Below the pieces are notes generated by a model. The model did no database searches and was not told the origin of the DNA. It worked only from the letters and a program-made list of their open reading frames with translations. 64,000 nt of DNA from positions 1 to 64,000 of the forward strand of contig JAIXYN010000020.1 of NCBI GenBank assembly GCA_027490195.1, written 5' to 3'. Source of the DNA: Verrucomicrobiaceae bacterium. Lineage in GTDB: Bacteria > Verrucomicrobiota > Verrucomicrobiia > Verrucomicrobiales > Verrucomicrobiaceae. Both the position numbers and the translations under genes were made by a program. Positions 9,772 to 26,874 of the stretch are shown piece by piece; positions within the stretch are counted from its first letter, which is position 1; every line of letters starts with the position of its first letter.

Positions 9772-11024
9772 GACTTCACCTCCAAGAGCTCTGCGTAGGT
9801 TTCCGCATACTGCCGCGCAGCTTGGGCGATGGTGAATTTCTCAAGCACCCGCTGGCGTGACTTCCGGGCGATTTCTTCACGCGCTGCTGTGCCGAGTTGC
9901 AGCGCCCTTTCCCAGGCGCTCGCCAGCGCGGAATGATCACGCATCGGCACCACCTCACCCAAACCCTCAAGCAGACGTCCGCAATCACCCACATCCGTGG
10001 CGACACACGGCACACCGCAGGACATCGCTTCAAGGATGGTCATCGGGCACGCTTCAGTACGCGAGGAAAGCGAGAACACGCTCAGCGCCGGATACAAACG
10101 CCACGGATCGGCACGGAAAGACTCAAAGCGCACCTGATGGCGCTGCGGCAGCATGGCCAGCAGCTCACGCTCCACTTCACCCAGTTCGATTTCGACCCCG
10201 CCGCAAAAGACGAAGTGTGCCTCGGGCACCCGCGTCTGAAGCAGAGCCGCTGCGCGCAGAAAGGTCGCCAGATCCTTCATCTCATGAAAACGCCCGACAA
10301 AGCCGATCACCGGAGCGTTCGCCGGCAGTTTCAATTCGGCGCGCGTGTCGAGACCCGCATCCGTATCAGGCACAAAACGCTCGGCGTTGATGCCATTGGG
10401 AATCCAGCGCATTTTAGCACGCGGATAGCCCATGGCATCGTGGTTTTCGATGGCGGTGGCTGAGCAGGAAATGATGCGCTGCGGGATAAAACGTGAGCTG
10501 TAGGCCAGCGCACGACGGAAGAGCCCCATCTTGGCGTCGCTGTCGCCGGGGTTGCGATGAATTTCGCGGCAGTGAATGCTCCAGACAATGTTGCGCACTC
10601 CAGCCACCCATGCAGCCCAGCCGCCTACGAGATCGGCGTGATGCGTCCACGTTTGCACGATGTCAGGGCGCTCTGCACGCAGCACGGCGTGCAGTCTGGC
10701 GAGTGTGCGCGGATTGAGATACGTGGTGCTTTCAAGATCATGTACATCCACCCCGGCCTCATGCAGCCGCTTCAGCTGATGCGTCCAAGGCTTGGCATTG
10801 ATGGCCACGACAACGGTGCGGAACTGCGCCGGATCGAGCGATTCAGCCAGGTTCATGAGCATCGCCTCCGCGCCACCACCGCCGATGCTGTAGGCAAAGT
10901 GCAACACCACCGGACGCCGGTCGAGTGCGGGTGCCGGCATGGATTGCGCAGCCACAAAGGCACGCATCGGCTGCTGGATAGGCAGCTGCAGCGTGGTACT
11001 CGTGGCAAGCGTGATCGTCTTCAT
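9768..11024 (-). CDS. glycosyltransferase family 4 (GT-B)
   Basis: This 418-residue cytoplasmic enzyme probably transfers a sugar from a nucleotide donor to the growing exopolysaccharide repeat unit. The N-terminal Rossmann domain carries SIGGGGAEAMLMNLAE. The C-terminal domain has VIGFVGRFHEMKDLATFLRA and the donor-site E-x7-E motif in RTEACPMTILEAMSCGVP, all standard for GT4. The ATG overlaps the stop of the deacetylase gene (ATGA), and its own stop overlaps the DUF4091 start. The sugar donor cannot be deduced. Confidence 0.93.
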   Translation of the reverse strand: MKTITLATSTTLQLPIQQPMRAFVAAQSMPAPALDRRPVVLHFAYSIGGGGAEAMLMNLAESLDPAQFRTVVVAINAKPWTHQLKRLHEAGVDVHDLESTTYLNPRTLARLHAVLRAERPDIVQTWTHHADLVGGWAAWVAGVRNIVWSIHCREIHRNPGDSDAKMGLFRRALAYSSRFIPQRIISCSATAIENHDAMGYPRAKMRWIPNGINAERFVPDTDAGLDTRAELKLPANAPVIGFVGRFHEMKDLATFLRAAALLQTRVPEAHFVFCGGVEIELGEVERELLAMLPQRHQVRFESFRADPWRLYPALSVFSLSSRTEACPMTILEAMSCGVPCVATDVGDCGRLLEGLGEVVPMRDHSALASAWERALQLGTAAREEIARKSRQRVLEKFTIAQAARQYAETYAELLEVKS

Positions 11025-12088
11025 ATCATCGACATCGCTTTCCGGCAGCTCTGCCGCCAGTCTTTGAGTGTTTCAAAGGCGCCCGAAACTGTGGCTTTTG
11101 CTTCCCACACGGATTCTGGGGAGCCGTAGCGTGGCAGCTGGTGCATGGAGACGGCGTCATGCACCCGGCCGCAGACCGTGGTGCAGGCGGCTTTGAACCC
11201 CGCCTCACGCACAAGCATGAGTGTTTCGCGGGTGAAATCGTCAGTCCCGCCATTGGGATAGGCAAAAGCAAGAGGCAGTTCACCGATCTCGGCATGAATG
11301 CGATCTCGGCAGGTGGCAATTTCCGCCCGCATCGCCATGACATCGCAGCGTGCCAGAATGGGATGAGTGTGTGTATGGCCGCCAATGTCCACATGCCCGC
11401 TGAGGGACATTTCACTCGCCATCTCCCACGTCATCGGGCGCATGGCTGTGGGAAGGTCATCAAAAGAGGGGGTTCTCACCTCAAGCGCAGCCTCCAAACG
11501 ATCAATCTCGCTCAGCAGATCGGCATCTGGCAGTTCCTTGAGTTCAGGCAGCAGCTTCATCAGTGACTGCTTACGCAACTCATAGGTTCCGAGGTACAGC
11601 CGCAGCTTCCTCCCATTGATTTTCCAGTCGAGCAGTTCCTTCTTCGTCCGACCGAGCGCCAGATCCGCACGCTGAAACCAAAACATTTCCACCCCATCCA
11701 GGAAACCCGTGGTGACAAAGATGGTGGCATGCAGGCCGAACTCCCGCAAAATGGGGAACGCCAGCTCGTAGTTGGATGCATAACCGTCGTCGAAGGTGAT
11801 GACCACTGAGTTGCTAGGCAGGCCGGATCCCTGGCTTCGCGCTTCGACGAGATCTGCCAGTGAGATCACCCGGTATTCTTTGGCCAGCATGGAGCAAATG
11901 CGGCGGAAGACATCGACCTGCAGATGCAGCGACCAGTCGAGAACACCTCGATCATGGGTATTTTCACTCAGACCATGAAACGTTAAGATCGTGGCCTCAT
12001 CAGAACGCCGTGTACGCGAGAACGACGCCAGACCGCTCCCAACAAGGGCGGCGGCTTTGATAGAGCGCGAGTAAGGAGCGAGCGGCAT
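11021..12088 (-). CDS. polysaccharide deacetylase (NodB domain)
   Basis: This 355-residue protein is first in the exopolysaccharide operon. The NodB homology domain shows motif 1 VVITFDDGYASN (about residue 98), with the catalytic Asp and metal-binding Asp. Motif 2 GGHTHTHPIL (about 236) has the metal-binding histidines, and FAYPNGGTDDF follows. It should remove N- or O-acetyl groups from a polysaccharide. A TTG six bases upstream is in frame, but the ATG at 12088 is preferred. It resembles the deacetylases of exosortase-linked polysaccharide loci; that assignment is inference. Confidence 0.9.
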   Translation of the reverse strand: MPLAPYSRSIKAAALVGSGLASFSRTRRSDEATILTFHGLSENTHDRGVLDWSLHLQVDVFRRICSMLAKEYRVISLADLVEARSQGSGLPSNSVVITFDDGYASNYELAFPILREFGLHATIFVTTGFLDGVEMFWFQRADLALGRTKKELLDWKINGRKLRLYLGTYELRKQSLMKLLPELKELPDADLLSEIDRLEAALEVRTPSFDDLPTAMRPMTWEMASEMSLSGHVDIGGHTHTHPILARCDVMAMRAEIATCRDRIHAEIGELPLAFAYPNGGTDDFTRETLMLVREAGFKAACTTVCGRVHDAVSMHQLPRYGSPESVWEAKATVSGAFETLKDWRQSCRKAMSMI

Positions 12089-12118
12089 AATCAAAGTGTT
12101 AATGAATGGTTTAGTCCC

Positions 12119-12272: not shown

Positions 12273-12308
12273 AAAACAGCAAGGCCGGAGGTCGCCCTCC
12301 GGCCTTGC
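12273..12308 (-). terminator. strong terminator of the DUF1080 gene
   Basis: A perfect 13-bp stem (12279-12291 with 12296-12308) has a 4-base loop and is followed on the minus strand by GTTTTTAGG. It lies just after the DUF1080 stop codon. Confidence 0.9.
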
Positions 12309-12338
12309 CGAGTGTAATATTGATGTCCTGGCACCGCC

Positions 12339-13166
12339 TCAGAGCGGCCTGATCCAGATGTTTCGAATGCGTACCGGCGGCTCGTTTTTGTGGTCCTGAA
12401 TGCGGATCGGAGCTTTTTCGGGGAACTCCCCGCTGTAATCCGTGATGTTCTTGTGCTTCGTCGGTCCCATGATCTTCGTGTGGTTCTGCACGCAGATGCC
12501 ATTCACAAAGGTAGTGATGTAGGCTGGCTCCACCACTTTGCCGCCTTCCAGCTTGGGCGCGGTGAAGACGATGTCATACACCTGCCACTGACCGGCAGGA
12601 CGCACGGCATTCACCAGCGGCGGTGTCTGGCCGTACACACCGCCCGTCATGCCATCGGCATAGGTGGGGTTGTTGTCGCAGTCCAGCATCTGGGTCTCGT
12701 AGCGGTCCATGAAAAACACCCCGGCATTGCCCTTTTTCTGGGAATTGCCTTTCGTGTTCGGCTCGCTCATCCACTCCAGATGGAGCTGGCAGCTGGCGAA
12801 CTCCTGCTTTGTCCAGCAATCGCCGCCGGAAATCATCATCACCGCGCTGTCAATCGTCCACGGGCAGGGAATGATCTTCCCTGTCTCCTTGCCCTTCGCG
12901 TCCTTCTCCTTCGCTTGCAGCGCGTCGGAGCTGGTGCCGTTGAAAATCACAATCGCATCTGCGGGTGGATCGCCGGGCTTTTCGCCAGGAGCCACGGCGG
13001 CAGGACGAGGACGATCGATGTCATGCACCTTCCACTGGGTGCCAGGAATGACCGGCGTGTCCGAATAGCCAATGGGCGAAGGTTTTTCAGCGGCGGGTTT
13101 GGAGTCGGCAGCTAGGGCCGGAAAACTCGCCAAGGCGAGCAGGAGGGTTGTAGCAGTGTGTTTCAT
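12339..13166 (-). CDS. secreted DUF1080 (3-keto-disaccharide hydrolase-like) protein
   Basis: The 275-residue product opens with a signal peptide (MKHTATTLLLALASFPALAA). It then has the concanavalin-like DUF1080 fold: ADAIVIFNGTSSDALQ, then WTIDSAVMMISGGDCWTK, GNAGVFFMDRYETQML, and the closing IRIQDHKNEPPVRIRNIWIRPL-type strand. The family includes 3-keto-glycoside hydrolases and is greatly expanded in Verrucomicrobiota and Planctomycetota. The frame is open to 13250, but the ATG at 13166 places the signal peptide correctly. It is transcribed alone and ends at a strong terminator. Confidence 0.9.
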   Translation of the reverse strand: MKHTATTLLLALASFPALAADSKPAAEKPSPIGYSDTPVIPGTQWKVHDIDRPRPAAVAPGEKPGDPPADAIVIFNGTSSDALQAKEKDAKGKETGKIIPCPWTIDSAVMMISGGDCWTKQEFASCQLHLEWMSEPNTKGNSQKKGNAGVFFMDRYETQMLDCDNNPTYADGMTGGVYGQTPPLVNAVRPAGQWQVYDIVFTAPKLEGGKVVEPAYITTFVNGICVQNHTKIMGPTKHKNITDYSGEFPEKAPIRIQDHKNEPPVRIRNIWIRPL

Positions 13167-13200
13167 GCGGGAAGCAGCAAACGAGAAGCCGCAGATGATG

Positions 13201-13229
13201 TTGCAGGTCAAGATGTGAAGTAATGTAAA
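13201..13229 (+). promoter_or_regulatory. possible promoter of tRNA-fMet
   Basis: TTGCAG and TGTAAA are separated by 17 bases, about 50 bases before the tRNA 5' end. The match to the sigma-70 consensus is modest and was judged by eye. Confidence 0.3.
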
Positions 13230-13278
13230 TACAGGTTGCCAATCTTCCAAGACAGCCGATTCTCATCCCCCATCAAAT

Positions 13279-13355
<77 letters not shown>

Positions 13356-13361
13356 ATTTCA

Positions 13362-13396
13362 AAGCCCTGTAGCTCACCGAGTTGCAGGGCTTATTT
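13362..13396. terminator. hairpin terminator shared by tRNA-fMet and the hydrolase gene
   Basis: AAGCCCTG (13362-13369) pairs with CAGGGCTT (13385-13392), and the stem extends inward through G-U pairs. TTATTTGTT follows on the plus strand. The stop codon of the minus-strand hydrolase (13374-13376) lies inside the hairpin, so it could serve both convergent transcripts. Confidence 0.65.
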
Positions 13397-15278
13397 GTTC
13401 TCCCGAATGCGACCGCTTAGATAACGCTGTCAGCGTTGGCGCAAGCAGTACACTGTCGTCATCCAGCACCTGCTTTTGAATCAACTTGGAACCAAAGCGC
13501 TGATGCAAGTAACCCGTGAGTGACTGATAAAACGTCTGCCGCGCCTGCGCCGTGGAAAAAGTATGATCCGCATTCGCAATGAAGTGGCACTGCAGCCTTC
13601 CCTGTTTCATCAACTGCTTCGCCTTGCGCCGCGCCTGATACATCAGCAGGAAATACCCCGGATCATTGTCCGAAACAAACATGGCCAGCGTGCGCTCAGC
13701 AGCAGCGACACGGCTCAAATCTCCAGGAAGGTCTTTGCGCGCTGGATGCCCGCAGCCGCTCTGCGTTTCAGGCTTCTCAGTCGCTGCCATTAAGCTGCCA
13801 AATCTCTGGAGACGCGGCATCAGATGGCCCGCGAAGCGTTTCAGCGAGCCGGTAAACCCCGTGCGCGTCTTGCCGGTGAGCAGCATCTTCCACTGACTCC
13901 ATTTGAAGATAGCATTCCAATACTCACGCCAGGCCACAAGCTGGTCGGTGTTCGTATCATTGATGGTCATGCCCTCCTTCCAGAAAAAAACGAGGGGATT
14001 GATGAGGATGCTTTCGATGATAGCCGGATGTGGCAGCTGCGCCGCAGCCTGAAAGGCCACGTAGGCGCCCGAGCAGAGGCCCAGAAGCACGATGGGGCGA
14101 CCGGGTTGCTGCACATTCAAATAATCACACACCAGTCCCACGTCGCGAAAGGCTGTCGCCGCGTAGGTGTCGTTTTCTTTTTCGGGATCCACCACCACGC
14201 TGTCACCGATGCCGTTGATGTCGAGTCGCAGACAGGGATAACCGAGCGCCGCAAGCTGCCGCGCCATGGCCACATGGATTCGCCCCGGCCCGATCCGATA
14301 CGCGGCACCGGCATTGATCATGACGATCCAGGGCAGCTTCGTTGAGGGCTCCACCGGTTCCGTCATGATGCCAAACAAATCAGGCACTCTGCTGATGTGA
14401 AGAATGCTTTCACGCACCGCATCTGCACCGTAGGGCAGCATCGACATTGCACAGGATAAGAGCGCAGTTCCCCTGGCTGTTACGGCAGGGGATGCGGCCT
14501 TCATCCAGTCCACAATGCCCCGCAGGGCTTCTTGCGGCACTTCGGTCTCATGAGGTTCAGCCATCATTGCCTCGTAGCCGGGCAGCGCCATCAGCTCCGC
14601 CGCCACACCCTGCTTCAAAAGATGCTCCAGCAGCGACGCGTCACCCGCCGCGTTCGCATGGGATGCAATCAACACCCGCCCGCAGCGCAACGAATGCGAC
14701 AGCAGATCCACCTTCGCAAGTTCACCTGCCAACTCATGCACATAAACAAAGCCCATGGCCTCAATGCCTGCTGAATCACTGCCCGCAGCCATCTGCGCGG
14801 TTTGACTCAAAGCGGTGAGCTCGCGCACGTAGCGCCGGCCTTTCACAATAGGCGACCACAGCACCAGACTCTCCACCTCGTGCTGCTCCGCGTAAAGCGC
14901 CGCCAGAGTCGCCCCCATGCGCAGGCCCATGAGGCTGATCTTCTGACAGCCCGCTTTGCTGCGCAGCCATTCCACCGCATCGTTCACATTCACCTGCCAC
15001 GCGGCCAAAAGCAGCGGATCGTACTCGGTGCCGCCCGAGTCACCGGTGCCGTGGTAGTCTAGCCGCAGCACCGCAAAACCTTGTGCCGCCAGATTGTTCG
15101 CAAGATGTCGTAGCGAACGGTGTGAATGAACCTGCTCATGTCCGAGCGGCGGACAGATCAACACCCCGTGCTCAGCCACAGCGTCAGCGGGACGGTGAAG
15201 CCACGCAAACAATGACCTCCCACCGCTCTCAAAATAGAACGCGGTTCGCCTGACCTGATCCAGTGGCTCAGGTGTCAT
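13374..15278 (-). CDS. tandem alpha/beta-hydrolase, exosortase-system-like
   Basis: Two alpha/beta-hydrolase domains are fused in one 634-residue protein. Domain 1 has HGVLICPPLGHEQVHSHR, LRLDYHGTGDSGG and the nucleophile elbow GLRMG (118-122). Domain 2 has LRLDINGIGDS and the elbow GLCSG (400-404). Where hydrolases have serine, the first has Arg120 and the second Cys402. This pattern resembles the hydrolases of exosortase A loci. The first domain is therefore probably not a serine hydrolase; the second might use cysteine as a thioesterase or acyltransferase. An AGGA sits before the ATG at 15278, which overlaps the GH2 gene by 11 bases, so the longer frame to 15332 is not needed. It is the last gene of the carrier-protein operon. 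Confidence 0.82.
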   Translation of the reverse strand: MTPEPLDQVRRTAFYFESGGRSLFAWLHRPADAVAEHGVLICPPLGHEQVHSHRSLRHLANNLAAQGFAVLRLDYHGTGDSGGTEYDPLLLAAWQVNVNDAVEWLRSKAGCQKISLMGLRMGATLAALYAEQHEVESLVLWSPIVKGRRYVRELTALSQTAQMAAGSDSAGIEAMGFVYVHELAGELAKVDLLSHSLRCGRVLIASHANAAGDASLLEHLLKQGVAAELMALPGYEAMMAEPHETEVPQEALRGIVDWMKAASPAVTARGTALLSCAMSMLPYGADAVRESILHISRVPDLFGIMTEPVEPSTKLPWIVMINAGAAYRIGPGRIHVAMARQLAALGYPCLRLDINGIGDSVVVDPEKENDTYAATAFRDVGLVCDYLNVQQPGRPIVLLGLCSGAYVAFQAAAQLPHPAIIESILINPLVFFWKEGMTINDTNTDQLVAWREYWNAIFKWSQWKMLLTGKTRTGFTGSLKRFAGHLMPRLQRFGSLMAATEKPETQSGCGHPARKDLPGDLSRVAAAERTLAMFVSDNDPGYFLLMYQARRKAKQLMKQGRLQCHFIANADHTFSTAQARQTFYQSLTGYLHQRFGSKLIQKQVLDDDSVLLAPTLTALSKRSHSGEQISPATR

Positions 15279-17766
15279 GATGAGTTTCCTGAGATGCACT
15301 TCTGGCCTCCACCGAAATCTCGCCCGCCACATTCAGAGCCTCAATAGACACTTCAGGCACCTTGCTACCGCCGCTGCGTGGTGAAAAGGAGACTGTTTTG
15401 GCCCGGTTCGGTGCAAGATGGAAATAGTTGTCGTCAGGCAGAAATCCCTTGGCCGACAAGCGCACGTTATGCAAAAACCGGTCGCTCTTGAGTGTGAGTT
15501 GATAGCGCCCGCCACCCAGCGCTTCCACCTTGGCATCCAGCATATCCGCTGACATTGACTGCGCCACGGGATCACGTGCACGGGTCAAATGAAACGACTC
15601 ACTGATGACCTCACGCTCGGCGCTGAACCAGGTCGCGATCACCACATGATGCGACTGCGGACCAAAACGATACGCATAGTTCACATCAAAAAACGAACCC
15701 AGAAATTCATCAACACTCCGCATCTCCAGCGATCGCCCGTCCACCTTCAAAGCGATCTCATCGCGGGCAACGACGACATTCGGCTCACGCAGCAACTGCA
15801 CTTCCACAAAGCCCTCCACAGCCTCGACGGTTTCGTTGCTGAGATGCACATGCAACCCATCAAGCCCTTCATCCGTGAGCGACAACTGCCGCGTCTGCCA
15901 CGCGCGCTTCAGCTGATAATATGCTGCCTTCGGAGTTCCCGTACTGTCCACAATTCCCCACCCCGCCGCTGGCCACAGATCCTTGTAGAACCACACCAGG
16001 GCACCCGCATTACGACTGTAACCGCTGCGCCATTCAGCAAACGTTCGTGCCATCATCTCTCCCGATGCCACACGGCTCAATTCCAAATATCGCGGCATGT
16101 CGAACGAGCGCAACGTCACCGGATCGACATTGAACAACTCTCTCAGGTAGTGATCACGCACATCTTCAAAGTCCCATCCAGCTCCCGTGTCACGCGGAAC
16201 ACGCTGCTTCCAGCGCGGGTGGTGCATCACTGGCATCAGGCCACCCATGATCTCATCAATCGTATCCGTCTCCGGGATGTTCGCAAAACCCAGACACTCG
16301 CTGGTAAACTTCACATCCGCCTGCCTCAGCTCACGCAGCGAACGCAAATACGCCCCGATGCCATAGTAGTGAGTGACGCCGGTCCGCGTGTGAAACGGTA
16401 GCACACCGCCGCTCGGCGATGACGGCACATAAGCCGTGCCGGGATGATGCAGGTTGCACAGCTCGGGCAGTTGGTCGCCGAACCAGCCGTTGCGCCAAAG
16501 CTCACGCGCCATTCCCAGCATCGCAGCCTGCTGCTCGATCTCGCTGTTACCGCAGTAAACCGCCACGCAGGGATGCAGCGCGAATCGGTCGAGCTGCTGC
16601 TTCGCTTCAATCGTGATGTTTTCGTCGAACGCCGCGTCCTCCACAGGGTAGTCCATGTTGGCAAACATGAAGTCCTGCCAGACAAGGATGCCCAGTTCAT
16701 CGCAGAGGCGGTAAAAAGCATCGCTCTCATAGATCATCGTGCCGCCGATGCGCAGCATGTTCATGCCCGCATCACGCGCGAGTGTGAGGTCATGCCGCAG
16801 CGATTCCACCGTTCCACCGAGCGTAAAAATATCGTTCGTCGTCCAGCACGCACCCCGGCAGTACACGCGCTCACCATTCACATGAATCGCGAACCCAGGA
16901 TCATTGCAAACCTCGATGCTGCGGAAGCCCGTAGGCTCCAGCGGAAACTCATGAAGACCTGCATCCGTCTCGATGATCACCTTGCCAGCGTATGTCGCCT
17001 GCGCGCCATGCGTGTGCGGCCACCACAGCTCAGGGTGCTGAATGCTCAGCTCACCGCGCAGGACATCATCCTCAGACACAAGCTCCGCAAATTGCCCGCC
17101 GATCTGCAACCGAGCAGAGGAGATCTTCAACGACGTCGCTACCCTCGCACAAAAACTGACCACCCCTTCATCCTTCACAAGCACAGCCGTCTTTCGAATT
17201 TCCGTCAGCAGCACGGGAGCACGCTCCAGTCTCACCTCACGCCACGGACCCACCGCAGGCACCGGCGGCGACCAGCCGGGAATGCGTCCCAGCAGGCTCG
17301 TGCGCTGCCAGCGCAGCTGCTGGTTATTCACGAGGTTGGTTTTCCAGCGCGGACGTGGTCGTTTCTTCTTCAAGTCCGCCGTTAGCGAACGAAAGCAGAT
17401 CACCAGCTCATTCTCATCGCGCAGTACTTTCGCCACATCCACACGATGGCTGCGGAACATGTTGTTGGAGCTCAGAATGAGCTCGCCGTTGAGCCACACA
17501 TCCGCCAGCGATGCCAGGCCATCAAAGCACAAAAAGCATGGCTCTTCCGCCACTCGCGCTGCCGCCGCAAAAGTGGTGCGGTACCACCAGTCCTGCGCAT
17601 CGACATCTGGCGGATTTTGATGATTCCACTGGCCTCGTGCACGCAATGCCGAAGCCACGGTGCCCGGCACCTCCGCATTAAACCAGTCGCCCTGCGCCGG
17701 TTGAGCGCTGGCTCCGGGAGCCTGCGCACAGCATGTCCACGGCGCAAAGTGAACGGGGTCCGTCAT
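15268..17766 (-). CDS. GH2 beta-mannosidase-like glycoside hydrolase
   Basis: This 832-residue protein has the GH2 layout: an N-terminal jelly-roll (FLCFDGLASLADVWLNGE), an Ig-like domain, a TIM barrel, and C-terminal beta domains. The acid/base Glu409 lies in YCGNSEIEQQ and the nucleophile Glu490 in FTSECLGFAN. The barrel start GMNMLRIGGTMIYESDAFY and EFPLEPTGFRSIEV also match beta-mannosidases. There is no signal peptide, so it should act in the cytoplasm. It sits between a DUF1839 gene and a hydrolase in an operon for charging a carrier protein. That suggests it handles a glycosylated small molecule rather than dietary mannan; this is inference. Confidence 0.85.
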   Translation of the reverse strand: MTDPVHFAPWTCCAQAPGASAQPAQGDWFNAEVPGTVASALRARGQWNHQNPPDVDAQDWWYRTTFAAAARVAEEPCFLCFDGLASLADVWLNGELILSSNNMFRSHRVDVAKVLRDENELVICFRSLTADLKKKRPRPRWKTNLVNNQQLRWQRTSLLGRIPGWSPPVPAVGPWREVRLERAPVLLTEIRKTAVLVKDEGVVSFCARVATSLKISSARLQIGGQFAELVSEDDVLRGELSIQHPELWWPHTHGAQATYAGKVIIETDAGLHEFPLEPTGFRSIEVCNDPGFAIHVNGERVYCRGACWTTNDIFTLGGTVESLRHDLTLARDAGMNMLRIGGTMIYESDAFYRLCDELGILVWQDFMFANMDYPVEDAAFDENITIEAKQQLDRFALHPCVAVYCGNSEIEQQAAMLGMARELWRNGWFGDQLPELCNLHHPGTAYVPSSPSGGVLPFHTRTGVTHYYGIGAYLRSLRELRQADVKFTSECLGFANIPETDTIDEIMGGLMPVMHHPRWKQRVPRDTGAGWDFEDVRDHYLRELFNVDPVTLRSFDMPRYLELSRVASGEMMARTFAEWRSGYSRNAGALVWFYKDLWPAAGWGIVDSTGTPKAAYYQLKRAWQTRQLSLTDEGLDGLHVHLSNETVEAVEGFVEVQLLREPNVVVARDEIALKVDGRSLEMRSVDEFLGSFFDVNYAYRFGPQSHHVVIATWFSAEREVISESFHLTRARDPVAQSMSADMLDAKVEALGGGRYQLTLKSDRFLHNVRLSAKGFLPDDNYFHLAPNRAKTVSFSPRSGGSKVPEVSIEALNVAGEISVEARSASQETHHDT

Positions 17767-17771
17767 CGTAT

Positions 17772-18749
17772 TTACGCGGGAAACGCGTCCTTCAGTTGCT
17801 GCATCGCCAATGCCCAGTTCTCAGCCATTTGATCGACAGGAGCGAAATCAATCGCCCTCTTCCGTGCCATCGCGCGTGCCAGCTGAAACTGCAGCGTCTT
17901 CGCCCCGGTGGAAAGCCGGAGAATCGACTCAATCGCGCCATCCAGCCCACCCACGCCCTGGCTCTGCAACCACTTCAGGTAGGTGCCGGCCAGTTCATAG
18001 CAGGAGCCAAACTGACGCAGCGTGGCAAAGGAGTATTGATGAAACGTAGTGATCGGCTCGTTGATCAGCCACTGCATGTCGGCCTCAAAACGGGCGCGGA
18101 ACTTCACGAAGGGATTCCCTTCTGGCAGGCGGTGCAGCTGACGCCGCAGCAAACCGAGCGACGCATTCAGCAGTTCCTCGCCTTGCAGCGCCAGCGAGGG
18201 GGTGCTCTTTACAATCTCACAGTAGGGTGGCAGAATCGCGGGATTCTTTTCGCCGCGCAGATGAAACACATGCGCGAAATCATCCCCCTGCAGATGGTAG
18301 TAGCCCTGCGCATGGAAGTAGCCCAGGCGCTGCTGCTCCATGTCGATCTCGGCGATGGCCACTGTCGTTTTGACATGCTCCAGCTGATAGGCGCTGCCTG
18401 CCGTGTCAGGCAGATAAAACGAGTCGAGTTCAACCAGCAGCGGTCGTCCAAGCGACAACTGCTCTTCGATGTGCGCCGTCAGAGGGCGATAGATCGCAAG
18501 CTCTTGCACATCGAGCCCATAGAGTTCGTACAAATCCGCCAGTTGGTATTTGAAAAAGGTCCACTGGTCGCCTTCGAAGTCGATGCCCAGCGTGAATGGC
18601 AGGGCCGCTATCGGCTCCAGCCCCCGGGCGTGCAGCACTTCGATCCACACGTCCACGTAGCAGTTCGTCTCCGCCCACTCGCGCTCCTGCGTGTGCAGGC
18701 GATGCCGCGCGTAAGTTTGTGGATCAAGCGCTGGAAACGGCTGAGTCAT
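17772..18749 (-). CDS. DUF1839 family protein
   Basis: The 325-residue product matches DUF1839, a family of unknown function that I know as a neighbour of amino acid:[carrier protein] ligase genes. Visible features are WAETNCYVDVWIEVLHARG near the N-terminus, then FEGDQWTFFKYQLADLYELYG and LVELDSFYLPDTAGSAYQ. The fold hints at a cysteine-peptidase-like or BtrH-like transferase: an early Cys30, a His in the LEHVKTTVA segment, and an Asp in VELDSFYLPD. If that is right, it could move the amino acid from the carrier protein to an acceptor. There is no signal peptide or membrane segment. The start overlaps the ligase stop by 4 bases (ATGA). Confidence 0.75.
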   Translation of the reverse strand: MTQPFPALDPQTYARHRLHTQEREWAETNCYVDVWIEVLHARGLEPIAALPFTLGIDFEGDQWTFFKYQLADLYELYGLDVQELAIYRPLTAHIEEQLSLGRPLLVELDSFYLPDTAGSAYQLEHVKTTVAIAEIDMEQQRLGYFHAQGYYHLQGDDFAHVFHLRGEKNPAILPPYCEIVKSTPSLALQGEELLNASLGLLRRQLHRLPEGNPFVKFRARFEADMQWLINEPITTFHQYSFATLRQFGSCYELAGTYLKWLQSQGVGGLDGAIESILRLSTGAKTLQFQLARAMARKRAIDFAPVDQMAENWALAMQQLKDAFPA

Positions 18750-19681
18750 AGTTCCAGGGCATTTTTGACCTCATACGGCCAACGGTCAGGATCAAATCCG
18801 TGGTGCTTGAACAAGGCCAGCGTGATGCGTTCCATTCCAAACCCGATGCACGCCGAATGCGCCGCCTCACCGTTCGGCAGATTGATGTCGAAGGCTTTGC
18901 CGAAGTAGTCCATATGGCAGTTGGTCGATGCAATTGCCGTCGGCTTCTCATCCGAGGCCACGGCAAAGGTGAATTCATGCTTCAAATCCTGATCCTTTTG
19001 CGAGGCCGCCATCACACGCCCGCCACGTCCGAAAAACGGATCATTGGCCAGCACGATTTCCACTCCGAGACCGACCTCCGCCAAAATGTCGCGGCCCAGT
19101 TCAAGCCATTGTTTGCGATGCTCCAGCGCCTGTTCGGCCGTTCCAATACGGACGAACTCGCGCTGGCGGAAAATCTGCAAGCGGCACGGGTCGATCGAAG
19201 GCTCATGCCGAAACACCTGTGACAGCAGATCCACCGTCTTGCCCTCGTTCGTGATCGTGCCTGTCAATGTTGGGTACAAAGGATAGCAGCACGCGGGCGA
19301 CAGCATCAGCGCGCTTGGCGCCAGTTCCTGCGTCCATTCTTCACCGTTTTCGCGCTTTGTCAGCATCCTCACATGTTCACGCTCACGTCCCATGAAGCTG
19401 TGCACGGAGCCCATCAAATCCGGAAAGTTTTCGAGGTGGCTCGTCTTCAAATAATGCTCTCGGCTCAGCACTCCAGGCAGTCGCAGTACATCGGCCTGGA
19501 TATGCGCAGCTCGGCGCGTGATCAGGCGGTCAAAGCTTTGCAGCACACCGTCAAACACACCGTTGTAACCATAGACACCACGCACGCCGAGCGGCACGAG
19601 CAGTCCGGCCTCGGTGACCTGGTCAAGAAACGCCTGGTAGGCCTCAGTGAGTGGGAGGGTTGCGGTGGATGTACACGTCAT
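18746..19681 (-). CDS. amino acid--[acyl-carrier-protein] ligase (SerRS-like)
   Basis: This 311-residue class II aminoacyl-tRNA synthetase homologue has the catalytic core only, without the tRNA-binding arm of SerRS. Motif 2 is FRHEPSIDPCRLQIFRQREF and motif 3 is GFGMERITLALFKHHG. The zinc-binding Cys-Glu-Cys triad of the characterised Bradyrhizobium enzyme maps to Cys131, Glu175 and Cys278. Family members activate glycine or alanine with ATP and load it on the phosphopantetheine arm of a small carrier protein instead of tRNA. Genes for a matching carrier protein and an acyl-CoA dehydrogenase lie immediately upstream. The amino acid used here cannot be read from sequence. No tRNA-binding or editing domain is present. 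Confidence 0.9.
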   Translation of the reverse strand: MTCTSTATLPLTEAYQAFLDQVTEAGLLVPLGVRGVYGYNGVFDGVLQSFDRLITRRAAHIQADVLRLPGVLSREHYLKTSHLENFPDLMGSVHSFMGREREHVRMLTKRENGEEWTQELAPSALMLSPACCYPLYPTLTGTITNEGKTVDLLSQVFRHEPSIDPCRLQIFRQREFVRIGTAEQALEHRKQWLELGRDILAEVGLGVEIVLANDPFFGRGGRVMAASQKDQDLKHEFTFAVASDEKPTAIASTNCHMDYFGKAFDINLPNGEAAHSACIGFGMERITLALFKHHGFDPDRWPYEVKNALEL

Positions 19682-19684
19682 AAA

Positions 19685-20920
19685 TCAGCCTTCCTTGTGA
19701 ACCAGCAGCATCGTGGCGTTCAGTTTCAAAATGCGGTCGTTGTTGACCATCAGTGCCGCGCCATAAGCATCTCGCAGATGGCGCGCGATGCTGAATTTGG
19801 TATCGTTACGATAACCCGAAATGCCGCAGATCAGCATCGCACGGCCCACGATATCCACGAGTTGCTGTGATGAAGACAGCTTCAGATTGTTCGTGCGGAT
19901 GGAAAAGCCAAATTCTTCAAACACATCCGGGCAGTCGCGGCTGCGCAGTTCATCGTATTCTCGAGCCAGTGCCGCCACATTGTGCCGCATCACCTGCAGC
20001 ACTTGATCAGCCTCACCCAGCCGAATGGCCGAAATGGGTGTTTCGCCGGGTGTCTTGCGCGCTTCAGCACGCACAAAGGCACGGGCCTGGTTCACCGCGT
20101 CCATCGCGATGCCCGACCACAGCGCACCCCACACAATGTGTGAGTAAGGGTGCATCGTCTGCCCTAGAATCTCGTTGAACGGCTGCGGAATGATCTGCTC
20201 CGCGCTGCCAGATGCAGTCAGTTCAAAGCCCGAGCTGCAGGTGCCGCGAAAGCCCATCGTGTCCCAGGTCGAAAGCGGCACCGCCGTATAATCACCCTTC
20301 CGCACCATGACGTGTACCTGCTCATTCGCCGGCGCATTCGGCTCACTACGGCAAGTCACCAAAATCTCGTCCGCGTACTCTCCATACGAAATGACGGGGG
20401 CCTTCTTGGTGAGCTTGAAACGATCCCCAGTGACTTCCACCGCACAAATGCTGGAGCGCAAGTCCCCACCCGTGCCGATCTCCGTCGTCGCAGAAGCCAT
20501 GAGTCGCTGCTCATCCACCAGCCGTCTCAGGTAGTCGCAGAAGAATTCCGACTGCTGGGCATGATGCACGACGCACGCCACCTGAATCTTGTGCATCGCA
20601 TAAATCATGGCCGATGAGCCGCAGTACTGGCCCAGGGTCTCGCAAATCTTCGCAACCTGCACGAGGTTCAACCCCATCCCGCCATACTCTTCAGGAACAT
20701 AGGCACTCAATAGCCGCGCCTCGCGCATGGCATTGATCGACTCGCTCGGAAAGCGCGCTTTTTTATCCACATCCGCCGCATGAACACGGAGCACCGTTTT
20801 GCCCAGCGCATGCACCTCCTTCAAAAGTTCGTCGAAATCGACTTCGGTGCTGCAAAGAGTGCTCACAGGATTGGCTTGGGGCTGGGGGTGAAAGGTCTTG
20901 ACCAGTTGGCGCAGTTTCAA
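19685..20920 (-). CDS. acyl-CoA dehydrogenase-like flavoprotein
   Basis: This 411-residue flavoenzyme has the ACAD fold: an N-terminal helical domain (LLSAYVPEEYGGMGLNLVQ), a beta domain (MASATTEIGTGGDLRSS, then WDTMGFRGTCSSGFEL) and a C-terminal helical domain. The context suggests it oxidises an aminoacyl group carried on the adjacent carrier protein, as related dehydrogenases oxidise prolyl thioesters, rather than a fatty acyl-CoA. The start shown is a TTG nine bases after the carrier-protein stop. The first ATG in frame lies well inside the fold, so TTG or a GTG about 19 codons later is required. Confidence 0.82.
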   Translation of the reverse strand: MKLRQLVKTFHPQPQANPVSTLCSTEVDFDELLKEVHALGKTVLRVHAADVDKKARFPSESINAMREARLLSAYVPEEYGGMGLNLVQVAKICETLGQYCGSSAMIYAMHKIQVACVVHHAQQSEFFCDYLRRLVDEQRLMASATTEIGTGGDLRSSICAVEVTGDRFKLTKKAPVISYGEYADEILVTCRSEPNAPANEQVHVMVRKGDYTAVPLSTWDTMGFRGTCSSGFELTASGSAEQIIPQPFNEILGQTMHPYSHIVWGALWSGIAMDAVNQARAFVRAEARKTPGETPISAIRLGEADQVLQVMRHNVAALAREYDELRSRDCPDVFEEFGFSIRTNNLKLSSSQQLVDIVGRAMLICGISGYRNDTKFSIARHLRDAYGAALMVNNDRILKLNATMLLVHKEG

Positions 20921-20929
20921 AACCTGGGC

Positions 20930-21184
20930 CTAGGCCGCGAGCTTTGTGATCACCTCTGCAATGGATTCGATGCTCTTGAAGGTGCGGCGGCCAATCAGAT
21001 TGTCGGGGAATTCCACATCGAACTTGTCTTCCAGCGCCAGCATCACCGCCACGGTCGCTAAAGACGTCAGGCCGGCGTTATAAAGGTCATCAGCCTCCGT
21101 CAGGTTTTCCACGGGGAACCGTCCATGCTGGGCAAGGACTTCACGGATGTCAGGCACCAAAGTATTGCGTTCGTTGTCGCTCAT
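20930..21184 (-). CDS. aminoacyl carrier protein (ACP-like)
   Basis: This 84-residue four-helix carrier protein carries Ser41 in DDLYNAGLTSLATVAVML, the expected phosphopantetheine attachment site. Helix III and the end of the fold read EFPDNLIGRRTFKSIESIAEVI. It is first in the operon and is the likely acceptor for the amino acid ligase two genes downstream. Standard fatty-acid ACPs have DSL at the attachment site, whereas here it is LTS, so it is a specialised carrier. An AT-rich stretch with TATAAT on the minus strand (21211-21216) lies about 30 bases upstream and may be the -10 box. Confidence 0.9.
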   Translation of the reverse strand: MSDNERNTLVPDIREVLAQHGRFPVENLTEADDLYNAGLTSLATVAVMLALEDKFDVEFPDNLIGRRTFKSIESIAEVITKLAA

Positions 21185-21493
21185 AATGATAAGTGGACTA
21201 AATATATGTAATTATAATAAATATAGCAAATATTTATCCGTCCATTTATTTCATCAGCCACCGCGACTCTCGCTGCCCAGCAATGAAGCATGCCCCCATG
21301 GGGCGAACTTTTCAGCGCCCTTCGCCAGCTTTTCCCACGCGCAGCGTGCCTCATCACCTGCGTCTTTACCTGCCCTTATTTTGCAGTGCATGACCGCCCC
21401 CAGACCGTTCGCCATTGTGGCGCGGTGGCAAAATCAACGCCGGCCATGATTAACCCATACGCACGCACAGGTTAAGCAGAGAGGGGGTTGTTC
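21185..21493. other. intergenic region upstream of the carrier-protein operon
   Basis: The first ~65 bases are very AT-rich (21185-21250) and probably hold the operon promoter, including TATAAT on the minus strand at 21211-21216. No good -35 was found. The remainder has short inverted repeats (for example GCCCCCATGGGGC near 21293) and no convincing gene. Confidence 0.4.
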
Positions 21494-21531
21494 AAAAATG
21501 CCTACAGGCTGCACCCTGCCTTGACGCAGGG
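21494..21531 (-). terminator. possible terminator of the small secreted protein gene
   Basis: On the minus strand a CCCTGC/GCAGGG hairpin is followed by a short GCC-TGTA-GGC hairpin and ATTTTTG. It lies just after the stop codon of the gene ending at 21550. Confidence 0.45.
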
Positions 21532-21549
21532 CAGAAGCGGTACGGCCAA

Positions 21550-22005
21550 TCAACGCACCGGATTTTTCGAAATTTTATAAATCCAATGTTCAACACGCCC
21601 AGCGCGGACGCATGCATAAACTTCAGATGAGAACTGGGTGGTACTGTACCGAGCTCTGGAGACGCGCGGGAGAGGCCTGCCATCCGTGCTGATCTGCTGG
21701 TACGAAGTGTCTGGACCTGCGGTGAAAAACGTCACAGGCACCAGCCAGTAAATCTCGTTGTTGTATTTGCCAATGGTTGGGTTGCCGTAACGAAACACAT
21801 TTTCTGGGGTCACGGAGCTGACCTGACCTGCCCGCATGCTCTTAATGAGCAACGGGTATCGCCCTCTGAAATCTTTTGCTGGCCTCACGCCTGCCATTGG
21901 ATGGTTGAAACTGGGATCTGTCGCGTGGTCCGAGGCATTGGCGGATGCGAACATGCCCAGACCAAAAACAACGAGAAAAGCGAGCAGTGAGGAATGAGTC
22001 TTCAT
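21550..22005 (-). CDS. small secreted protein of unknown function
   Basis: The product has 151 residues with a signal peptide (MKTHSSLLAFLVVFGLGMFASANAS). I do not recognise the mature domain. It is polar, contains one cysteine (EVYACVRAG), and has a series of short beta-prone segments (NEIYWLVPVTFFTAGP, EHWIYKISKNPVR). The frame is open for 17 more codons upstream, but the ATG at 22005 starts the signal peptide. It stands alone on the minus strand and is followed by a weak terminator. Confidence 0.6.
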   Translation of the reverse strand: MKTHSSLLAFLVVFGLGMFASANASDHATDPSFNHPMAGVRPAKDFRGRYPLLIKSMRAGQVSSVTPENVFRYGNPTIGKYNNEIYWLVPVTFFTAGPDTSYQQISTDGRPLPRVSRARYSTTQFSSEVYACVRAGRVEHWIYKISKNPVR

Positions 22006-22157
22006 GTGAGTGATGGGATTGCGCCTATGAATATGGCCATATCCTTGAGAGATCAATGAAACCTTAATGACAAAACGGTTGATTGTAGGGGCACACTAAA
22101 AAGATGCCCCCCCCTTGTAAGCATCATTCACGCCATGATCGCTGCTGGGTTCTGCCG

Positions 22158-22526
22158 TCAGCCCAACTCTCCGACCTCGTAATAATCATCCTCTGCGATG
22201 TCTGGAATGCCAACAACGAGGACGCGCATCTTCCCACGCGCACCATGCACGACACCGGGCGGGATGTGTACCAGAGAGCCCTGGCTGACAGGCTGTTCGA
22301 CGCCGTCGAGCACGACAGTGCCGCTGCCGGCAAGGACGTAGTAGAGTTCCGTGGAGCGTTTGTGGTAATGGAGCTTCGCGCCGTCGATGTCCACCGCATG
22401 TGCCCAGGCAGCTGGGGACAACTCCTCATCTTCGCGGCTGATTAAGCGATCCCGCCAGCCGCAGGTGCTACGCTCACGCGGCGTGTGGCCTTCGTGGCGG
22501 ATCAGCAGCGGGCCGGCGGCAGACAT
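22158..22526 (-). CDS. cupin-domain protein
   Basis: The 122-residue protein is a single small beta-barrel cupin. Motif 1 is LHYHKRSTELYYVLAGSG, with two His and one Glu as metal ligands. Motif 2 is GSLVHIPPGVVHGARG, with the last His. Such proteins bind a metal and a small ligand; substrate and reaction are not evident. It lies 33 bases after the CII-like regulator on the same strand and is probably cotranscribed with it. Confidence 0.85.
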   Translation of the reverse strand: MSAAGPLLIRHEGHTPRERSTCGWRDRLISREDEELSPAAWAHAVDIDGAKLHYHKRSTELYYVLAGSGTVVLDGVEQPVSQGSLVHIPPGVVHGARGKMRVLVVGIPDIAEDDYYEVGELG

Positions 22527-22559
22527 GGGTGCAAATGACCTGGATTTGTAACGCAGGTG

Positions 22560-23045
22560 CTACTTAAAAGTGCGGTGGGTTTTAATCTCATCCGCGAGAG
22601 GGGCAAACTCGCCCTTCTCGCAATGTCGGACAAAACCTTCAGTGAAACGTTTCAATTCATCCCACACACTGCGGATGTGGGCCGCCTCCTCCAAACTGAC
22701 ACGGCTGTCTGATGCGGCCGTGCTGATGGCGGTGAGGAGATCCGCGAACTGCTGGACGATTTCCTGCGTGGCAGGCATCAGTTCCATGCCACGCGGCCCC
22801 CCGCCGGTGGGATTCTGCACAAAGACGCCGTTTGCCTTGTGGCAGAGCCACTGGATGAGCTGCGGATCCTTGGTGATCTCAAACAATTGGCGCACGCGAT
22901 CAAGCGGATTGGAGGTCCCACTGCCCTGCTGCTCGTCGGGCTGGGACCACTTGTAGGCGAGCGAAAGAGAAACGCCCATCTGAGCCGCCACCTCTTTAAA
23001 GCTGGTTTGCTCAACGGCCTTGCTGATCACTTCGTGGGAGTCCAT
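22560..23045 (-). CDS. CII-like HTH regulatory protein
   Basis: This 161-residue protein has an N-terminal helix-turn-helix (EQTSFKEVAAQMGVSLSLAYKW), then PLDRVRQLFEITKDPQLIQWLC and a helical tail. The arrangement resembles the phage regulatory CII family, which is also common as chromosomal genes in this phylum. Nothing else nearby is phage-like, so I read it as a chromosomal DNA-binding regulator. It may control the cupin gene downstream, with which it forms a two-gene unit. Confidence 0.65.
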   Translation of the reverse strand: MDSHEVISKAVEQTSFKEVAAQMGVSLSLAYKWSQPDEQQGSGTSNPLDRVRQLFEITKDPQLIQWLCHKANGVFVQNPTGGGPRGMELMPATQEIVQQFADLLTAISTAASDSRVSLEEAAHIRSVWDELKRFTEGFVRHCEKGEFAPLADEIKTHRTFK

Positions 23046-23236
23046 ACCTGATTTGTTTCAGAAAGTGAACCATTTGGCAAGTAGCATCCTTGCCGTTCTA
23101 ACATGGCAAATGTGACACACTCTTACTCTTTGCGCTTGTAGAAGAAAATTCCACGCACCTAGTCTGCCGCCTCATAAAAATCTCCACCGTCATCGTCAGC
23201 AAAGACGGCACGGCCACCATTGAGGAGAGTGTTCTA

Positions 23237-23893
23237 ATGGGTGCCCAGCCCGCTGGCATGATCCAAGGCGGTCAGGGCGATCAGCTCAAGGGCCTCGTCA
23301 TGGACAAGGAAAAAGCCGAGGAACGCGCGAAGAAACTCGGCGAGGGCGTCACCGTCAAATCCCATGAGGAAGTGAAAACTCCCGATGGCAAAAGCGGTGT
23401 GAAAATCGTCTTCGCCGTCGCTGATGTGACGAAGCTGAAATACGCACCCTATGAACCCGAGCAGGAAGGCAAGCCCTCCACCACAGCGCCGATGACCTTC
23501 GCGCTGAGCGGCTCCACCCTTACCATCACCAATCCTGATGCGGATAAAAAGAAAGGCGGCGATGCCGCAAAGCCGAAGAAGAACGCCGAGCAAATCGCCA
23601 TGATGAAATCCCAGATGGCGATGATGAAGCCTATGTTCGCGGGCATGCACGTTGCCGTGGAAGTCAAAGGAGCCAATGGCATCTCCAGCTCCAGCGCCTC
23701 GCATCTGAAGGATGGCACGATCAGCTACATGGACATCCAGTTCGACAAGATCATGGACAACAGCGAGGTCTTCGCCGGCTTCATGGAAACGGCTGATACC
23801 GGCTTGAGCCCGGCGGAAGTGGCAGAAAAATTCAAAAACGTCGATGGTCTCAAAATCGAGGGCAAAAAAGTGGCCACGGCTGAGCTCAAGTAA
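23237..23893 (+). CDS. probable secreted/lipoprotein of unknown function, start unresolved
   Basis: The 218-codon frame from the ATG at 23237 encodes a basic, lysine-rich protein with PEQEGKPSTTAPMTFALSG and a C-terminal helical part (SPAEVAEKFKNVDGLKIEG). The same frame stays open upstream to 23102 and reads STVIVSKDGTATIEESVL just before that ATG. This is a typical first beta-strand pair of verrucomicrobial exported proteins in which KDG(S/T)xTI precedes such a strand. No ATG, GTG or TTG occurs in the extension, and a signal peptide is missing. The gene may have lost its 5' end, carry a frameshift near 23100-23170, or use a rare start. Function unknown. Confidence 0.6.
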   Translation: MGAQPAGMIQGGQGDQLKGLVMDKEKAEERAKKLGEGVTVKSHEEVKTPDGKSGVKIVFAVADVTKLKYAPYEPEQEGKPSTTAPMTFALSGSTLTITNPDADKKKGGDAAKPKKNAEQIAMMKSQMAMMKPMFAGMHVAVEVKGANGISSSSASHLKDGTISYMDIQFDKIMDNSEVFAGFMETADTGLSPAEVAEKFKNVDGLKIEGKKVATAELK

Positions 23894-23925
23894 GCCACCT
23901 CACCCATCGACTGAGTCAATCCAGC

Positions 23926-23954
23926 AAAGCCGGGGAATGAAGCCCCGGCTTTTT
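23926..23954 (+). terminator. rho-independent terminator
   Basis: AGCCGGGG (23928-23935) pairs with CCCCGGCT (23943-23950), the stem is extended by A-T pairs, and a T-run follows. It lies 33 bases after the preceding stop codon. Confidence 0.88.
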
Positions 23955-24025
23955 CGTGAGTTCTTGTCGAGATCGGCATGAGTTTTCGTTTGCCGCACCG
24001 CCCTGACGCCGGACATTCAGCGCCC

Positions 24026-24679
24026 ATGTCTCAGATTCTAGATTTCGCCCTGCACATCGACAAGCACCTGCAAACCTTCGCCTTGGAACATGGCGCACTG
24101 ATTTATGGACTGCTCTTCGCCATTGTCTTTTGCGAGACCGGCCTGGTGGTGATGCCCTTTCTGCCGGGTGACTCACTGCTGTTTGCCGTGGGCGCACTGT
24201 CCGCCCAGGGCCTCATCCGCATCGAGTACATTATTCCGCTGCTCATGTGCGCCGCCATCATCGGGGACAACCTGAACTACTGGATCGGCCGCAAGGCGGG
24301 CGGCTGGATCGTCAACCAGCGCTGGTTCAAGCGCGACTACCTCGCGAAGACCGAAGGCTTCTTCGTCAAGCATGGCGGCAAGGCCATCATCCTCGCACGC
24401 TTCGTGCCCATCGTGCGCACCTTTGCCCCCTTCACCGCAGGCTTTGGCCGCATGGACTACCGCCGTTTCCTCGGCTACAGCCTCGGCGGCGGCTTGGTCT
24501 GGGTGCTCAGCTTCAGCATCGCCGGTTACTTCCTCGGCAGCATCCCAATCATCAAAAACAACCTCAAGCTGGTCTTTGTTCTCATCATCGTCGTCTCCAT
24601 GCTGCCCATCATGTTTGAAGTGCTCAAACACAAAGCAGAGGCCAAAAAGGCGAAAGCGGAAAAGGACGGTGAATCTTAG
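24026..24679 (+). CDS. DedA-family membrane protein
   Basis: The 217-residue protein is a polytopic inner-membrane DedA/SNARE-associated protein. It has the re-entrant segment ETGLVVMPFLPGDSLLFAVG and the family signature ARFVPIVRTFAPFTAGFG, with the conserved Arg residues. Members act in phospholipid (undecaprenyl phosphate or phosphatidylethanolamine) flipping and in proton-linked homeostasis. The C-terminus is a charged Lys/Glu tail. The frame is open to an ATG at 23978, but the ATG at 24026 fits family starts (MSQILDFALHIDKHL). It converges with the lipoprotein gene 6 bases later. Confidence 0.92.
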   Translation: MSQILDFALHIDKHLQTFALEHGALIYGLLFAIVFCETGLVVMPFLPGDSLLFAVGALSAQGLIRIEYIIPLLMCAAIIGDNLNYWIGRKAGGWIVNQRWFKRDYLAKTEGFFVKHGGKAIILARFVPIVRTFAPFTAGFGRMDYRRFLGYSLGGGLVWVLSFSIAGYFLGSIPIIKNNLKLVFVLIIVVSMLPIMFEVLKHKAEAKKAKAEKDGES

Positions 24680-24685
24680 TCCCGT

Positions 24686-25174: not shown

Positions 25175-25251
25175 GCCTGCACGGTATCATGACCGTCAAC
25201 CCGGTGGTGGAAAACTTTGCCAGCACGGGCAAACGCGGCAGAATGCCCGCC

Positions 25252-26859: not shown

Positions 26860-26874
26860 GGCCAGGCAACCAAG

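Follow-up and report, generated by a model that had tools for sequence, protein, structure and literature searches.

The window considered here, the first 64,000 nucleotides of contig JAIXYN010000020.1 from a Verrucomicrobiaceae bacterium, carries six genes in a row on its minus strand: a carrier protein (CP), a flavoprotein of the acyl-CoA dehydrogenase (ACAD) fold, an amino acid:[carrier protein] ligase resembling seryl-tRNA synthetase (SerRS), a DUF1839 protein, a beta-mannosidase-like enzyme of glycoside hydrolase family 2 (GH2), and a twin alpha/beta hydrolase. This cassette is real and conserved, and it is present or absent as a block. What it makes, and to what the product is attached, are the questions addressed below.

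The six genes

Judged by the ligase, the closest named relatives of the window contig are Prosthecobacter and other metagenome-assembled genomes (MAGs) of the Verrucomicrobiota. All six genes lie on the minus strand at the coordinates given in the original prediction, and Pfam and NCBIfam profile matches assign them to the families named there. The CP (20930-21184, 84 amino acids, aa) has its phosphopantetheine site in AGLTSLATV and matches PF00550 as well as NF005480 (93.8 bits, cut-off 72). It is followed by the ACAD-like flavoprotein (19685-20920, 411 aa, with a TTG start as listed; PF02771 and PF00441), the ligase (18746-19681, 311 aa; NF005479, 400.6 bits, curated cut-off 357) and the DUF1839 protein (17772-18749, 325 aa; PF08893, 402 bits, cut-off 22.5), a predicted papain-like cysteine acyltransferase with Cys30 and His125. 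The GH2 protein (15268-17766, 832 aa; PF22666 and PF17753) shows no signal peptide by eye, and the row ends with the twin hydrolase (13374-15278), a fusion of relatives of XrtA-system hydrolases 2 and 1 for which a longer open reading frame (ORF), starting at 15332, is listed. The genes had been described as head to tail with overlaps of 4-11 bp. This stands for two of the five junctions, ligase/DUF1839 (4 bp) and GH2/hydrolase (11 bp when the hydrolase starts at the internal Met at 15278; the listed ORF would give 65 bp), whereas the other three are gaps of 9, 3 and 5 bp.

A conserved block beside a tRNA gene

The cassette was followed through 36 loci in two sets, each of which presupposes one gene, the ligase or DUF1839, and not the other five; 8-10 kb of sequence was inspected per locus. 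Similarity to the ligase gave 12 loci, from eight Verrucomicrobiota MAGs and four Planctomycetota (three named Schlesneria), and similarity to DUF1839 gave 24, namely 23 plasmid loci and one planctomycete contig (L026). All six genes stand in the identical order, CP, ACAD, ligase, DUF1839, GH2 and twin hydrolase, at every one of the 12 ligase-search loci. ACAD, ligase and DUF1839 genes occur together at 36 of 36 loci, from Verrucomicrobiota and Planctomycetota to Alpha- and Betaproteobacteria. The CP is present at 35; the contig of L026 begins within the ACAD gene, so that the CP end lies outside it. GH2 is likewise present at 35 (missing in L020, and partial in L026, L036 and L040), which makes it part of the standard cassette and not, as had been proposed, something added in this operon. 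The twin hydrolase falls within the inspected stretch at 22 of the 36 loci. Absence of co-occurrence in other genomes had been named as the outcome that would speak against the operon; the six genes do co-occur, the sixth more loosely than the rest.

DUF1839 is rare. Among 387 Verrucomicrobiota genomes the one of the window alone has it; it was also found in 2 of 294 Planctomycetota genomes (one being the chosen center) and in 9 of 48 genomes of the genus, the window's included. Among plasmids of alpha- and betaproteobacteria 59 records have it, of which 23 were tallied; a 24th plasmid record outside the tally (L057) holds all six genes. For CP, ACAD, ligase, DUF1839 and GH2, pairwise distances are correlated, with r 0.81-0.97 over 28 loci; when the 16 proteobacterial loci are taken by themselves, r is 0.87-0.95. 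Eight of the 36 loci had been dropped beforehand: L020, which has no GH2, and L022, L026, L028, L030, L036, L039 and L040, which are truncated, fragmentary or rearranged. On the symbiotic plasmids L032 and L036 (Rhizobium gallicum, R. acidisoli) the cassette comes right behind nif genes and a gene for an "exopolysaccharide production repressor"; at L036 GH2 is represented by a fragment only.

In the window, the distal end of the cassette adjoins a plus-strand gene for tRNA-Met (CAT; 13279-13355), with the insertion point at about 13399. A tRNA-Met gene likewise lies just past the cassette in the seven nearest Verrucomicrobiota loci (L002-L007 and L013), and none was found beside it in the other 12 loci scanned. 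Five relatives (L051-L055) have no cassette at this site. In three of them (L052, L053 and L054, genus members without DUF1839), the matches to window positions ~13400 and ~22170 are only 6-11 bases apart; because the flanks are nearly adjacent there, the unit can be drawn as an insert of about 8.8 kb (13400-22168), all-or-none in the genus, which comprises the six genes and an ORF at 21550-22056. This ORF has no Pfam or NCBIfam match and by tblastn recurs, among the 36 loci, only in L002. L051 and L055 carry ~0.9 and ~3 kb of different sequence at the site instead, and the latter insert suggests that insertions may favor the tRNA-Met site as a hot spot. At the ends of the block, no repeats of at least 9 bases, direct or inverted, were found.

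What the conserved residues say of each protein

The ligase is a catalytic core without a tRNA-binding domain, and it aligns only to the C-terminal part of a 518-aa SerRS model. Its residues 27-309 (283 residues) align with 47-330 of the 346-aa Bll0957 (PDB 3mey and 4h2w), whose residues are matched by C132, E160 and C278. These three, which we take to be the zinc ligands of the family, are kept in 34 of the 34 rows that have residues there (L022 and L030 lacked them through short extraction, and L026 was left out). The idea that an amino acid would be loaded on the carrier is thus well supported, by family membership and by the conserved ligand residues. Relatives of the ligase load Gly or Ala (PMC5370406, excerpts). 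Divergent ligase-like proteins in 4 of 288 Verrucomicrobiota genomes (L015-L018), not counting that of the window, were set aside, with 94-134 bits on NF005479 against the cut-off of 357; they may be SerRS, and the control from M. jannaschii matches too.

The flavoprotein is the less secure step. Its Val392 faces the Glu of three solved ACADs (the fourth, 7p98, has Thr), and the 13 printed rows show either Val or Ile at position 392. Residues 256-273, the stretch of the alternative base, hold no Glu or Asp in any of the 13 rows, the exact second position varying between alignments. The two sites are presumably those named MCAD-376 and IVD-254. By the criterion of a catalytic Glu at either position, the cassette protein falls outside the classical acyl-CoA dehydrogenases, and because both are lacking, classical alpha,beta-dehydrogenation is doubtful. 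The oxidation of the amino acid foreseen in the original prediction is less secure than its loading.

Cys30 of DUF1839 is present in 36 of 36 rows (the window plus 35 loci, with L026 left out and the second copy used for L028 and L039), and His125 in 35 of 36. Excerpts of a 2023 survey, the single paper in the literature searched that mentions DUF1839, assign the family, with its C-(T/S)-H triad, to the papain-like proteins as a superfamily, and suggest acyl-CoA-dependent glycan processing at the cell wall (PMC10318531). At Cupriavidus loci the in-cassette DUF1839 protein lacks the Cys (CH34, EM10) and a second copy nearby, on the other strand, keeps it; at both Cupriavidus loci of the 36 the first DUF1839 found was this opposite-strand copy. 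The copies at L044 lie at 12688-13671 and 17446-18642, and L028 likewise has two. An AlphaFold2 model of DUF1839 built from 11 near sequences (mean pLDDT 51.9) was too poor for a structure search. BtrH_N proteins sought for a profile comparison were found in 3 of 145 Verrucomicrobiota genomes, all below the cut-off, and the comparison was dropped.

In GH2 beta-mannosidases an Asn usually precedes the acid/base Glu. Aligned to PDB 5n6u and 6byg, the cassette protein keeps both acid/base and nucleophile Glu in 33 of 33 rows, with Ser instead of this Asn in all 33, where 6byg reads GNNE. As for the twin hydrolase, its best NCBIfam models are TIGR03100 and TIGR03101, one per half, both below their cut-offs (138.8 against 168.45 and 123.3 against 202.75 bits). 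The first half reads GLRMG in the window and GLRxG in 18 of 23 rows, and in none of the 23 is the residue at the nucleophile position a Ser or a Cys; the second half reads GLCSG in the window and keeps the nucleophile-elbow Cys and a conserved His in all 23. Its AlphaFold2 model has a mean pLDDT of 65.3, and generic esterases and lipases are among the 50 best PDB matches listed.

Could the aminoacyl-CP simply belong to central metabolism, as an intermediate in the oxidation or supply of amino acids, with the hydrolases freeing the product? An ACAD and two alpha/beta hydrolase domains would suit such a route, and CP-bound amino-acid oxidation is known for prolyl carriers (a RedW-type NCBIfam match falls below cut-off). 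It leaves GH2, DUF1839 and the polysaccharide context unexplained, however, and the first hydrolase half has neither Ser nor Cys at the nucleophile position in any of the 23 rows. We consider this route highly improbable.

An exosortase (XrtA) locus was also entertained and rejected. No exosortase gene was found in the window contig, the genome's two exosortase matches are below cut-off and on other contigs, and its only two TIGR03100 matches, also below cut-off, are within the twin hydrolase; the TIGR03100 profile moreover matches 8 of 14 controls. The XrtA AMP-ligase (TIGR03098), considered as the mark of a parallel cassette, has matches in 8 of 9 genomes or records and in 12 of 14 controls as well, and was dropped. 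Its sole match over the cut-off, in the B. cenocepacia record, lies ~1.1 Mb from the cassette; C. metallidurans has 24 matches under the cut-off, and the single one among them that lies ~9 kb from the cassette was taken as chance. In the literature searched, nothing useful was found linking exosortase clusters with acyl carriers.

Exopolysaccharide clusters as a setting

The placement of the cassette in some proteobacteria points to a polymer. At the Burkholderia cenocepacia locus L045, CP, ACAD, ligase, DUF1839 and GH2 (22183-28192; ligase and DUF1839 positions taken from L024 of the same record) have a Crp-type gene on one side and a VpsR/sigma-54 regulator on the other. Within ~30 kb are Bac_transf, ManC (by similarity), glycosyltransferases, a Wzc-like protein, a flippase, Wza and the twin hydrolase (43904-45691). 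The bep/bec region, as published, is similar but has a partly different gene order. According to excerpts of the reports, among the products of the bep cluster Bcam1330-1341 are Wza, ManC, a tyrosine kinase and the TIGR03100 hydrolase Bcam1334 (PMC3584217), and berB and berA are BCAM1342 and BCAM1349 (PMC9684580). The six loci between berB and berA equal in number the set of GH2, DUF1839, ligase, ACAD and CP together with a single Crp gene, and from this count we infer that BCAM1343-1347 are the cassette; no text naming BCAM1343-1348 was found in the literature searched.

The exopolysaccharide locus of Cupriavidus metallidurans that contains the cassette (L044) also has Bac_transf, ManC, the twin hydrolase and Wzc, to which our own reading of the printed ORFs adds glycosyltransferases, Wza, Wzx and another Wzc. 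In Rhizobium sp. NLR16a (L034, 12874-16185) a Wzx-like flippase domain (residues 30-327, PF13440) precedes the twin hydrolase in one fusion protein of 1103 aa, with GT4 genes on the flanks.

There is also a phenotype. In excerpts of a Burkholderia pseudomallei mutant study (PMC5507470), becG carries the annotation acyl-CoA dehydrogenase; with an insertion in this gene, biofilm falls to 0.84 from a wild-type value of 1.25 and colonies are smooth. Insertions in becA (a glycosyltransferase) and becP (manC) give 0.52 and 0.66, and of the 18 bec genes all but three were hits, two of those three lying outside the library. The effect of becG is milder than that of becA, as a tailoring step might give. 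Transfer to a sugar or envelope component, the last element of the original prediction, gains from this phenotype, from the flippase fusion in Rhizobium and from the placement in Burkholderia and Cupriavidus clusters, while the transfer as such would be a conclusion from context.

The window has polysaccharide genes of its own on the minus strand (4307-12094): Wzc-like, GNAT (PF13480), weakly GH123-like, GT4 (TIGR03088-like, below cut-off) and deacetylase. Between them and the cassette region stands a terminator-like hairpin on the minus strand (12277-12310; 15 pairs, 11 of them G-C), whose inverted repeat recurs in L051, L053, L054 and L055. A terminator scan of the window gave 9 sites against 9.3 expected in shuffles, and this hairpin has the longest stem. 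Given its position, the polysaccharide genes are probably a separate transcript, and their adjacency to the cassette probably does not mean co-transcription. Elsewhere in the window, a reading frame of 7774 aa (40673-63997) runs to the window end and may encode a giant protein.

Several observations weigh against a role in polysaccharide modification. The terminator-like hairpin stands between the cassette, together with a DUF1080 gene, and the window's polysaccharide genes. Such genes lie within the inspected stretch at only 12 of the 36 loci, as a raw count: seven of Prosthecobacter type, two from Burkholderia, two from Cupriavidus, and NLR16a. At the other 24 none were detected by a panel of 20 query proteins or, where available, by annotation, apart from single envelope-glycan genes (in Shinella, L022, GumC at a distance of ~6 kb; at L021, ArnT and a gene of the LTA-synthase family; GT9 at the edge of L033). 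The loci without a nearby set include L008, Azospirillum, Mycetohabitans, Caballeronia, Methylobacterium and all Rhizobium except one; the four Planctomycetota loci gave zero panel matches, the flank proteins having been scanned in three. In the mutant study, as excerpted, becF, which to judge by its place is probably the CP gene, was represented in the transposon library and was no hit, a point against the model unless its insertion is silent, and the becG effect could be polar. As for DUF1839 as a transferase, the Methylobacterium protein (L027) lacks His125 and Asp109, and BtrH_N (PF14399) matches only 2 of 7 DUF1839 proteins, at 14.1 and 12.9 bits against a cut-off of 29.7. Lastly, the excerpted structure paper of the Bep polymer reports no substituent (PMC7084887).

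These points give room to another explanation, that the product is a small diffusible molecule (an oxidized amino acid or an aminoacyl glycoside) and that nearby polysaccharide genes are coincidental or co-regulated. A self-contained, all-or-none block with changing neighbors would suit it, as would the 24 loci just described and R. binae, where the quartet occurs without GH2 inside 10 kb. Against it stand the recurrent placement in exopolysaccharide clusters with the twin hydrolase, the flippase fusion and the becG biofilm phenotype; transporter genes adjoin some cassettes, and none is recurrent across the annotated loci. We rate such a product as rather improbable.

A proposed aminoacylation of exopolysaccharide

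Taken together, the arguments leave us evenly divided on whether the cassette is a self-contained aminoacylation system for a surface polysaccharide. We favor aminoacylation of an exopolysaccharide in the manner of Dlt and Alm, with DUF1839 as the transferase. In its support are the ligase and CP cut-offs, the zinc-ligand residues, the co-occurrence, the correlated distances, the placement in exopolysaccharide clusters, the flippase fusion, the TIGR03100 hydrolase Bcam1334 of the bep cluster, becG, the papain-like assignment of DUF1839, and the NaOH extraction discussed below.

By analogy with characterized relatives, the SerRS-like ligase would adenylate a small amino acid, with Gly or Ala the likeliest, and load it onto the CP thiol. 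The ACAD-like flavoprotein might then act on the aminoacyl-CP, probably by oxygenase- or oxidase-like chemistry and not by classical desaturation. The DUF1839 cysteine would take the acyl group and hand it to a sugar, either in a lipid-linked repeat unit or in the polymer. The half of the twin hydrolase with the Cys may have a share in this step, or may proofread or reverse it. The cytoplasmic GH2 enzyme could trim or remodel the glycan acceptor, which in Bep/Bec-type clusters would be the biofilm exopolysaccharide.

What bond would be formed? The structure of Bep is given in excerpts of PMC7084887 as [3)-Gal-(1->3)-Glc-(1->3)-Gal-(1->3)-Man-(1->]n, from material that was analyzed in NaOD after an extraction of 3 h at 8 C in 0.3 M NaOH. 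Because this repeat unit consists only of neutral hexoses, without an amino sugar, Bep offers no amine for an amide, and an alkali-labile ester is what would be expected on it. Ester-linked aminoacyl groups should be lost in such alkali, so that a cassette product on Bep could be invisible in the published structure; the escape of such a putative group from analysis is our own inference. In full, the proposal is a mobile Dlt-like system, in which a ligase derived from an aminoacyl-tRNA synthetase (aaRS), a CP and a papain-like transferase add alkali-labile, possibly flavin-oxidized aminoacyl esters to Bep/Bec exopolysaccharides, missed through alkaline extraction and analysis. In this complete form it is tentative, and we think it may well fail in one part or another.

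The alternative bond is an amide to an amino sugar of lipopolysaccharide (LPS) or another glycolipid, formed by DUF1839, with the flavoprotein mono-oxygenating the aminoacyl group. This is in essence what Iyer et al. predicted in 2010 from gene neighborhoods (PMC2922099). The polysaccharide deacetylase of the window could free amino groups for it, and the papain-fold protein BtrH is an acyl carrier protein:aminoglycoside acyltransferase (PMC10318531, excerpts). Bep, however, the sole polymer of known structure tied to the cassette, contains only Gal, Glc and Man, and by general chemistry an amide should outlast alkali better than an ester. We regard the amide as unlikely.

If the ester proposal is true, biofilm exopolysaccharides bear charged, labile aminoacyl groups that alkaline extraction destroys, and views on matrix charge and cohesion would shift. 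With the cassette tied to a polysaccharide that has published mutants, regulators and a structure, the question of the product is open to a direct analytical test.

Comparison with known systems

The general idea is not new. A note in proof of Iyer et al. 2010 (PMC2922099) described a neighborhood of SerRS paralogues and predicted that an amino acid is ligated to a cell-surface sugar; it shares with the cassette an acyl carrier protein, a redox enzyme, a conserved uncharacterized protein, a glycosidase and liposaccharide genes. In the literature searched, nothing useful was found joining the ligase family, the ACAD and mannosidase, or aminoacyl esters with exopolysaccharide. Beyond the 2010 note go the identity of the sixth gene, the presence or absence of the block at tRNA-Met, the Bep/Bec link, the argument for ester over amide and the missing ACAD Glu; what is new here is the link to a defined polymer.

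The exosortase-A-system hydrolases 1 and 2 (TIGR03100, TIGR03101) resemble the sixth gene product by best model, which differs in being fused and below the cut-offs. With the amino acid:[carrier protein] ligase and CP of Bradyrhizobium and Agrobacterium (Mocibob 2010, 2013), the cassette shares the ligase family, the zinc-ligand residues and an adjoining CP. Its members here are in Verrucomicrobiota and Planctomycetota, and their specificity is only putative. The Burkholderia Bep (Bcam1330-1341) and Bec (becA-R) clusters are comparable in that L045 and L044 have ManC, Bac_transf, Wzc-type genes and the twin hydrolase along with the cassette, and in the acyl-CoA dehydrogenase annotation of becG, whereas neither Bac_transf nor ManC is among the window flank proteins scanned.

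The closest functional parallels would be Dlt (D-alanylation of teichoic acid) and Alm (glycylation of Vibrio LPS), in which, as excerpted from PMC3783018, a carrier-loaded amino acid likewise reaches an envelope glycan or glycolipid. No homologues of DltB (MBOAT), DltD or LPLAT are among the Pfam and NCBIfam matches of the six genes. The cassette differs from both in its ligase, which is derived from an aaRS and is not of the DltA type, and in having an extra flavoprotein and a GH2 enzyme.

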